Shown here in pieces: positions 1 through 2,854 of a stretch of DNA of 57,854 bases. Within the stretch, counting starts at the first letter, position 1. The number at the start of each line of letters is the position of its first letter. The DNA is from Gammaproteobacteria bacterium (GTDB lineage Bacteria > Pseudomonadota > Gammaproteobacteria > BMS3Bbin11), in assembly GCA_013150915.1 (NCBI GenBank), contig JAADJE010000005.1, positions 1-57,854 of the forward strand, given 5' to 3'. The position numbers and the translations under genes were made by a program. Below the pieces are notes generated by a model, which was given only the letters and a program-made list of their open reading frames with translations, was not told the DNA's origin and searched no databases.

Positions 1-2137
1 CCAAAATATTCGCCTGTGTAGCGACTACTGGGCTCATGACGACAAGCTTATCAAGCTTAGTTAAATATTGATCAATTGCTCGATGCTTTTTGAGCCAGGA
101 TTTCATGGCCTCAATGTTATCCGGTAAGTCTTCTAGAATGATGTCCATCAATCCCGCATTGTATGCGATGGCATGGGTAGTAGTCATTCTTCGCGGTGTT
201 TCGAGGTAACGACAACCATTAATTTTGGCATACGGTTCAGCGTTTATTTCACCCCACTTCATCCCTCCTAGATAAAAAGCATTCCAGTCCAGGTGTTTAA
301 GTTCAACTAGCGAGTTAGAAAGATGTTTTAACGTTTCATCATGAAACATTGCATCATCTTCCAACACCAGAACATTTTGAAAACCTTTTTTCCTTGCATT
401 TTCAATAATATTTCTATGGGATAAAGCGCATCCAATATGATGTGATTCAGGTGTTTCAATAGCACTAAATCGTATTACGCGGTCACGAATCCCTAGCATT
501 TTCAGACGAACTTCCATTTTCTGCCAACGGCCTACTTCTCTATCAAGGTTGATACAATAAATACCATCAAAAAAGTTAAAGGGATCATTTTCTTCATCCT
601 TGATTTGTTGAACAATTTCTTCAACTACTTTTTGACTTGTCACCTCGCAAAAATGTTGTCGTAACTGCTCTATGTCCAGGCCTACTTCTTCGAAACCGAT
701 CAAATAATTACGAATTCTTTCTTCCCACTTATTCGGGTAGTGCACCCCCATTGGACGGGAGAAACGATGCATCCAGCGAAGAAAGGGTAAACATAATGTG
801 CGCGCGCCAGCATTACGAAATTTTTGATGAATATAGCCTTCTTCACCACCGAAACCGCTAAAACGGGGGTTATAGCCCTGCCACGCCTGTTTCCGGCACG
901 CTGCAAGCCCCAGTCCCTGCATGGGAATATCAAAAGGCTCACCCAACACATCCATTCCACGCTCATCTGTACTCCAGAAGCCAAACATCCCCTGTCGCCA
1001 TGCTGGCTCAAAATGCGTACTGATGCTCTTCAAATCATCATAGATCAGTGGCCCCTGAAGCAGATCAGGGGTATCTGGATGCTCATCAAAATAATCGATC
1101 AATTTACGAATTGCACCCGGTTCAATAAAAACGTGTGAGTCAATACACATCACATACTCGGTATTCGCCTTTGTGAAAACGAAATCCCTAACTGCCGTGC
1201 CTCTTATCTCATCGACAGCAATATAACGGTAACCAGAAACGTTCGCCCCCAGATTGCGTAACGCCTCTGCACACGGTCCAGATGGGTTATTATCTATCAC
1301 GAGTATTTCTGTTTCTTCAGTCACTTCCGGGTGATACATGCGGATGGCCTGCACTGAAAAATACACACCATCATAATCATCATAGGTCGCCATACCTATG
1401 GTCAGTTTCTTTGTTGGAGTGACTTCAGCCTTTGCATCAGGAATAGTTGAAGATGGAGTAAGGTTTCCCTCTCCTCCTATCTCGCCCAAAATATTGACAA
1501 GTTTCTCCTGGTCTTCAGACAGAAGTATCGGCAGACTACCGCTTGCAGCCGCCTTGGGCAGCAATAGATTTCTCTCTTGAGAAATACGATCATCCCGCTC
1601 AGGTGTAAATACAAAATCATAACCCTGAGCTGGAACTGCCGCATTCCCTTTTTTAGCCACATAGATCTGTAAAGAAGCTGTATGAACATGCAACTCAGGA
1701 TCAGAAAAATTGATATAAATGTCAGAGCCATCAATACCTTCTACTGCCCGAAGATCAAACCATTGCCCAAGCAGATTAATAAAGAAATGATGACGATCAT
1801 TCAGGTCTCCAGCGTAATTTGAGAAAGAAATGCTTGCAAATGGCTTAAGCATATGAGTCCCGAAATCCAGCAGGCCCTGTGAAAATAAGCGGCACAATGT
1901 ATCTGACACTTCCACCTCGGCAGCTTCATCTGAAGTCTCTTCTGTCTCCTTGACGATAGCTGTGATCTCAGCAATGTTCCTCACACCGTTGCACAATTGC
2001 CAAATATAGGCGGCAGATAGATTAACCCGAAAAGCATCTGCCCCACCCCGTTTGTGGATGACCAGCATTTCACCCCCATTACAGGTAAGGAAAATATCAG
2101 TGACTCGGCATGGCACTAAATTTGACGACAACAGCAT
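1..2137 (-). CDS. PqqD-domain / DxH glycosyltransferase / GT25-type glycosyltransferase fusion (3' end outside window)
   Basis: The frame is open from 2137 to the window edge (712 codons, no stop seen). Residues about 1-92 resemble PqqD, the family of peptide chaperones that bind RiPP leader peptides (ADAFRVNLSAAYIWQLCNG, then a winged-helix-like tail). Residues about 95-215 are unassigned, with a faint likeness to the N-terminal half of GT10 fucosyltransferases. Residues about 243-480 form a GT-A glycosyltransferase (KLTIGMATYDD start) with a D333-S-H335 metal motif and G430-G-E-E433, an arrangement seen in polypeptide GalNAc-transferases. From residue about 522 a GT25-like domain begins (GIYCINLDREVGRW, GCALSHRNI, LVLEDDAMF). 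No hydrophobic segment was seen, so it is probably cytoplasmic. It lies downstream of the exported Thr-rich protein gene on the same strand. Inference: it glycosylates that protein or a peptide. The start at 2137 is chosen because the PqqD similarity begins upstream of the next ATG at 2068. Confidence 0.8.
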   Translation of the reverse strand, partial: MLLSSNLVPCRVTDIFLTCNGGEMLVIHKRGGADAFRVNLSAAYIWQLCNGVRNIAEITAIVKETEETSDEAAEVEVSDTLCRLFSQGLLDFGTHMLKPFASISFSNYAGDLNDRHHFFINLLGQWFDLRAVEGIDGSDIYINFSDPELHVHTASLQIYVAKKGNAAVPAQGYDFVFTPERDDRISQERNLLLPKAAASGSLPILLSEDQEKLVNILGEIGGEGNLTPSSTIPDAKAEVTPTKKLTIGMATYDDYDGVYFSVQAIRMYHPEVTEETEILVIDNNPSGPCAEALRNLGANVSGYRYIAVDEIRGTAVRDFVFTKANTEYVMCIDSHVFIEPGAIRKLIDYFDEHPDTPDLLQGPLIYDDLKSISTHFEPAWRQGMFGFWSTDERGMDVLGEPFDIPMQGLGLAACRKQAWQGYNPRFSGFGGEEGYIHQKFRNAGARTLCLPFLRWMHRFSRPMGVHYPNKWEERIRNYLIGFEEVGLDIEQLRQHFCEVTSQKVVEEIVQQIKDEENDPFNFFDGIYCINLDREVGRWQKMEVRLKMLGIRDRVIRFSAIETPESHHIGCALSHRNIIENARKKGFQNVLVLEDDAMFHDETLKHLSNSLVELKHLDWNAFYLGGMKWGEINAEPYAKINGCRYLETPRRMTTTHAIAYNAGLMDIILEDLPDNIEAMKSWLKKHRAIDQYLTKLDKLVVMSPVVATQANIL

Positions 2138-2172
2138 CCTGAATACTCATAACTATTTGCTAAACATAGTAT

Positions 2173-2204
2173 ATAAAAAAGCCACCCCCGTGTAGAGGCA
2201 GCTT
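2173..2204 (-). terminator. Intergenic hairpin with U-tract (terminator or attenuator)
   Basis: Read on the minus strand, AAGCTGCC pairs with GGTGGCTT (two G-T pairs) around a ten-base loop and is followed by a run of T. It lies between the small exported-protein gene and the glycosyltransferase fusion. It could end most transcripts after the first gene, giving much more substrate than enzyme, as is common in precursor-peptide operons. Confidence 0.5.
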
Positions 2205-2257
2205 CATTATTACCCTGATATATAGTCTTTAAGAAACTGTATTAGCGTTCTTGTTTA

Positions 2258-2854
2258 CTAACTCGGTGTAGGAGGCGTCAACTGACAGGTCACGCTGGAT
2301 TTTGGTGCATTGTATGAAGTAGGCGCATTGCCGGTTACATTCACAACACCAAAAACAGAGCTTCCACCCGGACTTAAGGCACCACTGATACTAACAGACA
2401 CGGTACTGGGTGATGAGGCGGTAAGGGCAGAATCTCCAAATGGCAAAGTAAGATTGCCCGTATAGAGAGAACTTGAGCCCTGTACAGTTACCTGAACTGC
2501 AGCGGTTACCCCAACGACGTTGATACAGATGTTCTTTGTTGTCGGGGCTCCTGTTGTTGTTGGGGCCGCAGTCGTTGATGTAGATTCAGCGTGCGCAGTA
2601 GGGACAAAAAAGTCCAAAAATTTATTCCGTTCCAATAACGCAACCACTGACACCGAGTAACTGGCCACCGATGTCTGCGCATGCGCAGGTAGCACCACTG
2701 ATTCAATGACTGGTTTGGCCCATTTGTCCTGCATGGCGGCAGCACTTACCACAGTACCGCTCCCTGCCAGTATTTTTTTCAACGCCTTACGGCGCTTTTC
2801 CAGCTTCTTATCGCTTGATTCCCTATCCAGTTTCTTATTTTCTCTATCTGTCAT
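2258..2854 (-). CDS. Exported Ala/Ser/Thr-rich protein with twin-arginine-like leader; possible glycosylation substrate
   Basis: The product has 198 residues from the ATG at 2854, chosen because GGGGGA precedes it; a GTG at 2899 would add 15 residues. The charged N-terminus (Lys/Asp/Arg-rich, 1-20) is followed by KRRKALKK (20-27), a short apolar stretch (28-41) and LPAHAQTS with an AxA cleavage-like site at 57-59. This resembles a Tat signal followed by a signal peptidase site. A second AHA site lies at 87-89, directly before a Ser/Thr/Ala/Pro run (91-106). The rest is Ser/Thr/Val/Gly-rich, beta-strand-like, with only two cysteines (C110, C190) that could form a disulfide. I do not recognise a functional family. 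It lies immediately upstream of a PqqD-glycosyltransferase fusion on the same strand, so modification by that enzyme is a reasonable inference, not a demonstration. Confidence 0.75.
   Translation of the reverse strand: MTDRENKKLDRESSDKKLEKRRKALKKILAGSGTVVSAAAMQDKWAKPVIESVVLPAHAQTSVASYSVSVVALLERNKFLDFFVPTAHAESTSTTAAPTTTGAPTTKNICINVVGVTAAVQVTVQGSSSLYTGNLTLPFGDSALTASSPSTVSVSISGALSPGGSSVFGVVNVTGNAPTSYNAPKSSVTCQLTPPTPS

Follow-up and report, generated by a model that had tools for sequence, protein, structure and literature searches.

A PqqD-glycosyltransferase fusion gene and its leader-bearing neighbour

The DNA analysed here, which we refer to as the window, comprises positions 1-57,854 of the forward strand of contig JAADJE010000005.1, and "this genome" denotes the assembly to which it belongs (GCA_013150915.1). 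Two genes at the beginning of the window, both on the minus strand, encode a fusion enzyme and a smaller putative substrate protein, with the following features.

2..2137, minus strand: PqqD-GT-A-GT25 fusion enzyme (ORF, Pfam, model; 712 aa, C-terminus cut by the contig end)
1868..2041, minus strand: PqqD (RRE) domain, residues 33-90 of the enzyme (PF05402 above its curated cut-off)
590..1408, minus strand: GT-A domain, GalNAc-T-like, residues 244-516 (PF00535, fold, profile match)
203..613, minus strand: GT25 domain, residues 509-645 by Pfam, with the fold running on to the C-terminus (PF01755)
2178..2205, minus strand: terminator-like hairpin with a T run, between the substrate and enzyme genes (12-pair stem; consensus match only)
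2258..2854, minus strand: leader/substrate protein, 198 aa with the stop included (ORF; leader family)
2669..2854, minus strand: leader, residues 1-62 of the substrate, ending LPAHAQTS (relatives' leaders, 58-leader alignment)
2789..2794, minus strand: twin arginine R21-R22, in a Tat-like RRKALK (RR in 55/58 leaders)
2705..2722, minus strand: WAKPVI, residues 45-50, proposed PqqD-recognition motif WxxPx(I/V/L) (motif in 56/58 leaders)
2588..2620, minus strand: FLDFFVPTAHA, residues 79-89, second PxAHA-like motif past the leader (by eye)
2537..2584, minus strand: Thr tract STSTTAAPTTTGAPTT, residues 91-106, proposed glycosylation site (sequence; TTT counts in relatives)

The first-pass annotation had read the longer gene as a single frame joining a PqqD-like domain, a GT-A domain with DSH and GGEE motifs and a GT25-like domain. 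Profile searches bore this out, all three domains scoring above the curated Pfam cut-offs: PqqD (PF05402) over residues 33-90, with 31.5 bits against 23.4; Glycos_transf_2 (PF00535) over residues 247-369, with 39.5 against 23.3; and Glyco_transf_25 (PF01755) over residues 509-645, with 38.1 against 24. The EDD motif of the GT25 domain corresponds to residues 593-595. The closest relative, at locus L069 (714 aa), stops about 13 residues further, indicating that the gene in the window is nearly complete and lacks some 13 C-terminal residues. Between PqqD and GT-A, some 147 residues (window 1430-1870) matched no Pfam family, even at a threshold of E 10, and were modelled poorly. No recognised kinase domain was present in the fusion enzyme, and the Pfam search returned no lectin match, the GT25 domain occupying the position after GT-A. 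The hairpin between the genes, a consensus match only, could keep the substrate ahead of the enzyme.

The pair presents the arrangement seen in RiPPs, with a leader-core precursor adjoining an RRE-bearing modifying enzyme, as judged from ORF and Pfam evidence. The substrate had been described as an exported, Ser/Thr-rich protein with a charged leader, upstream of the enzyme. The charged N-terminus is evident (RRKALKK and ...WAKPVIESVVLPAHAQTS), and the Thr run does exist, though it is short: the tract STSTTAAPTTTGAPTT holds 8 Thr in 16 residues and the best 30-residue window contains 9. The relative at L069 has little beyond PPPPTTPR as a Thr tract, and this decrease from an already modest tract suggests that glycosylated sites may be few in this sub-branch. 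Export is inferred from the RR/AHA signal; four leader relatives (L071, L083, L107, L110) pass the Tat model TIGR01409 (NCBIfam), but the window protein itself had no match to curated signal models. TatC is encoded in this genome. Possible cleavage at AHA|QTS would yield a protein of about 139 residues. The second PxAHA-like motif was also seen by eye in L050, L069, L123 and L133, and marks perhaps a second processing site.

Fold and catalytic residues of the GT-A domain

A structure model was built on a 63-sequence alignment, the single-sequence AlphaFold model having a mean pLDDT of 32. Most of both glycosyltransferase domains reached pLDDT above 90 in the 63-sequence model. The PqqD part was poor, with a strand-strand-strand-helix-helix-helix order modelled at a pLDDT of only about 54. 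Fold comparison of the GT-A domain placed GalNAc-T2 at the top of the list (Z 24.2, rmsd 2.8 A, 251 residues), with polypeptide GalNAc-transferases at Z 20-24 and other single-domain GT-A enzymes at about 18.6 and lower. In addition, a profile of the GT-A domain alone matched GalNAc-T10 (E 3.5e-5) with the DSH, the GGE and a third His in register; a GT2 enzyme (6h1j) scored equally in this profile match, but over the N-terminal half only. The residues concerned are as follows.

1133..1141, minus strand: DSH motif, residues 333-335, putative metal ligands (aligned to the GalNAc-T10 DSH)
839..850, minus strand: GGEE motif, residues 430-433 (GGE aligned to the GalNAc-T10 GGE)
767..769, minus strand: H457, putative third metal ligand, in HRF (invariant; aligned to the GalNAc-T10 His)

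Among the 63 sequences, D333, H335, E433 and H457 are invariant and E432 is conserved in at least 90%. H457 sits 25 residues past the GGE glutamate, a spacing of 25 found in 56 of 60 domain matches. The metal ligands of GalNAc-T2, D224, H226 and H359, fit the conserved DSH and third His of the window domain. Both its predicted fold and the profile alignment of its catalytic residues put the GT-A domain nearest to the polypeptide GalNAc-transferases, in line with the initial hint of a likeness to these enzymes. Given that a GT25 domain stands in place of the C-terminal ricin-type lectin domain usual in eukaryotic GT27 members, we consider that it would at most work like a GalNAc-transferase, and do not file it as a member of that family.

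Gene pairing, leader family and PqqD placement

A scan of bacterial and archaeal genomes identified 68 contigs with the GT-A domain (64 non-redundant loci), from the Pseudomonadota, Thermodesulfobacteriota, Acidobacteriota, Actinomycetota, Planctomycetota, one archaeon and others. Thr-rich ORFs, defined by 11 or more Thr within 30 residues, were present within 3 kb of the glycosyltransferase in 35 of the 64 loci, or about 32 after dropping artefacts, and their rate was 1.24 per 10 kb near the gene versus 0.034 elsewhere on the same contigs, a 36-fold enrichment. By this threshold, about half of the 64 loci lacked a Thr-rich neighbour. The Thr-rich ORFs of L086, L087 and L093 look like frame artefacts, and the antisense ones of L123 were likewise set aside as artefacts of frame or strand. 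A TTT was found in 32/40 leader proteins linked to the glycosyltransferase and in 3/19 unlinked ones (p 3.6e-6, an optimistic value, the sequences being related). At the extreme, the leader is followed by a nearly pure Thr tail (L071, L107, L113). In a class sample of 369 genomes the glycosyltransferase module was present in three, all of them among the six with a genuine leader protein. The co-occurrence whose absence, according to the first-pass annotation, would have refuted its reading thus held both in the class sample and across phyla. Several alphaproteobacterial homologues (L101, L108, L119, L132, L097, L122) have no RR-leader protein beside them but an exported protein, porin-like or of another type, whose tail contains Thr.

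The domain is also encoded in uncultivated viral contigs, of which 80 were kept (L137-L216; 47 non-redundant loci). The viral GT-A domain usually stands alone, one contig also carrying a GT25-like ORF, and no PqqD and no leader were found in the 80 contigs kept. A poly-Thr ORF lies within 3 kb of the GT-A in 29 of the 47 loci. The persistence of this pairing where PqqD and leader are missing points to GT-A plus a Thr-rich protein as the constant element, and to PqqD and leader as a cellular addition. No tblastn match to the window GT-A domain was obtained in 50,697 isolate phage genomes, and no GT-A match in PHROGs.

The bacterial proteins linked to the enzyme share the leader pattern RR...WxxPx(I/V/L)...PAHA. 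Genuine members of this leader family occur in 6 of the 369 genomes of the class sample, this genome included, with up to ten per genome; here, leaders 54% identical to that of the window are found on contigs C74 and C95. Two further matches were discarded for want of the W motif: the G346 hit, and the L068 match, dismissed as chance. Alignment of 58 distinct leaders revealed WxxPx(hydrophobic) in 56, RR in 55 and a P-x-(H/Q)-A end in nearly all, counts that are partly circular because the leaders were collected with a profile of such leaders. Free of this circularity are short RR proteins picked by position only, which carry YTAPAV or YTPPAM; they lie next to two homologues from the Thiotrichaceae (L074, L092) and, in this genome, next to a PqqD-bearing protein of contig C93. 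We propose (W/Y)xxPx(I/L/V/M) as the putative element read by PqqD in these systems; it resembles YxxP, the lasso-leader motif read by RREs according to PMC12710340.

Other genes were observed in the vicinity of leader-family members. On C74 (L020:9759-11804) the paralogous leader protein adjoins a TTL-type ATP-grasp gene, so that a different type of modification may also rely on this leader. On C95 (L021:9075-11856) the gene of the paralogous leader protein converges on one for a GMC oxidoreductase and on a small gene with an RR signal. The C93 group (L014:453-3065) consists of a 71-aa RR peptide with YTPPAM, followed by a protein of 414 aa that bears PqqD and by an NTP_transf_5 gene, and is possibly a separate leader-guided system. 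Several leader proteins are encoded near an AraC-type regulator with a fused PqqD (L096:5720-7192), which perhaps senses the leader.

The position of PqqD varies among loci. It is N-terminal on the enzyme in the window, L069, L089, L090, L092, L126 and L134, C-terminal in L072, a separate neighbouring gene in others (e.g. L071, L087, L099, L107, L115) and fused to the Thr-rich protein in L076, L077, L085 and L105, several changes being required on the tree to account for these placements. Thr-rich substrates with a fused PqqD lack the W motif. No WxxP leader protein was found near three of the enzymes bearing PqqD (L089, L090, L092); L092 has the YTAPAV leader. PqqD is present in 126 of the 369 class-sample genomes and in five of the six leader-bearing ones, which makes it a weak genome-wide predictor of the leader. 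At L069:7365-13668, four PqqD-tagged sugar enzymes surround one leader protein: GT2_4-like, PIG-L-like and GT32-like proteins, each with its own PqqD, and the PqqD-GT-A-GT25 enzyme. The PIG-L match is under the Pfam cut-off; a de-N-acetylase of this type would fit an N-acetylhexosamine glycan. L134 and L051 combine GT32-like, PqqD, GT-A and GT25 parts in a single chain.

These placements bear on an unlikely alternative, in which the glycosyltransferases modify the Thr-rich proteins while PqqD is a scaffold joining the enzymes of the cluster and the leader a Tat signal only. PqqD on four L069 enzymes is what a scaffold might look like, leader relatives do pass the Tat model, and PqqD is found in 0/80 viral loci and is absent from many bacterial loci that still pair the glycosyltransferase with Thr-rich proteins. 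However, WxxPx(I/V/L) and PAHA are kept far beyond the needs of a Tat signal, the W motif is missing from substrates that carry a fused PqqD, and PqqD-type domains bind leader peptides in known cases.

An HprK-like kinase precedes the glycosyltransferase in many other relatives, and on contig C1 of this genome a PqqD gene adjoins an HprK-like gene. Sugar added to phosphate has been reported for some lasso peptides, and such a kinase might phosphorylate Ser/Thr, with the sugar joined to the phosphate and no simple Thr O-glycan formed. The fusion of kinase and glycosyltransferase in relatives, the C1 pair and the C93 PqqD-bearing protein with its NTP_transf_5 neighbour favour this reading; against it, the window gene encodes no recognised kinase domain, viral versions are mostly the glycosyltransferase domain alone, and the GT-A domain resembles enzymes acting directly on Thr. 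We regard it as very improbable. Least probable of all is that the enzyme makes a cell-surface polysaccharide or lipid glycan beside an unrelated exported protein: LPS and capsule pathways often employ GT2 and GT25 domains, and some neighbours (GT32-like, GT4-like) resemble enzymes of those pathways, but the 36-fold local enrichment over many phyla, the same pairing in viral contigs, the direct fusion of PqqD to Thr-rich proteins and the GalNAc-T-like active site all speak against it.

A putative leader-guided glycosylation system and its known counterparts

A two-gene, leader-guided protein O-glycosylation system, a reading that we consider probable, best explains how the genes are paired, which domains they encode, how well the leader is conserved and how the fold and catalytic residues match known enzymes. 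In the sequence of steps that we infer, the 198-aa protein would be made with a Tat-type signal doubling as a docking leader, which the PqqD domain of the fusion enzyme would bind, most likely through WxxPx(I/V). Bound PqqD would keep the substrate beside the GT-A domain, the presumed bacterial counterpart of polypeptide GalNAc-transferases, which would put a first sugar on Thr of the PTTT tract while the protein is still in the cytoplasm; this sugar would probably be an N-acetylhexosamine, with a UDP-sugar as donor. The glycan would then be lengthened by the GT25 domain, Tat would export the protein and signal peptidase would cut at AHA|QTS. No gene for a transporter or protease dedicated to the system was recognised.

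The repetition of the pairing across phyla suggests an undescribed route of sugar-coating proteins before export. A broader proposal, tentative and in our view somewhat short of likely, is that bacteria and their viruses share a widespread GalNAc-T-like family starting mucin-type glycans on poly-Thr, which bacteria would have organised into leader-guided assembly lines with a PqqD grip for each sugar enzyme, acting before Tat export. If the leader-guided system is real, RiPP-style leader guidance would reach beyond small peptides to whole exported proteins, and bacteria would gain a cytoplasmic mucin-like O-glycosylation route begun by a GalNAc-T-type enzyme. The origin of such enzymes would become testable, as would the reason why uncultivated viruses carry GT-A beside poly-Thr proteins and the ability of a short leader to steer sugars to a chosen protein in laboratory strains.

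The first-pass annotation knew no such system by name. RRE-glycosyltransferase fusions are already in print, mentioned as uncharacterised architectures in RRE-Finder (PMC7470986) and its 2025 update (PMC12710340); the accessible text of both gives no substrate, Thr-rich Tat protein, WxxP leader or GalNAc-T likeness for them. Neither the substrate family nor the leader nor the GalNAc-T likeness was found described in the open-access literature searched.

Comparison with other systems reveals partial likenesses. The combination of a PqqD-type domain with a leader peptide is shared with the PqqD-like B1 proteins of lasso peptide systems, and the addition of sugar to a ribosomal product with glycocin glycosyltransferases; unlike in these systems, the window encodes an entire exported protein as substrate rather than a small bacteriocin, and no lasso cyclase or glycocin genes lie beside the window genes. 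The HPr-rel-A systems (TIGR04352/TIGR04353, NCBIfam) recall the relatives with HprK-related kinase A and PqqD_rel_X-like domains, which match below cut-off, but no kinase domain was recognised in the window enzyme. Phage-encoded enzymes glycosylating virion proteins are represented by the mycobacteriophage glycosyltransferases Che8 gp110 and Corndog gp38, as cited in PMC12363180, whereas the window GT-A found no tblastn match among the isolate phage genomes. The procollagen galactosyltransferase COLGALT1 has the same tandem of GT-A and GT25, the GT25 part being matched by Foldseek and by sequence, but it has no PqqD, its domain placement differs (rmsd about 21 A over both domains), and the window has no collagen-like substrate. 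From the GalNAc-transferases (GT27) the window enzyme differs in its low identity (about 16%), in having PqqD and no lectin domain, in its presumably cytoplasmic location and in the filing of its GT-A domain by Pfam as Glycos_transf_2, while sharing with them the GT-A fold, the DSH, GGE and third His in register, and presumed Thr-rich targets.
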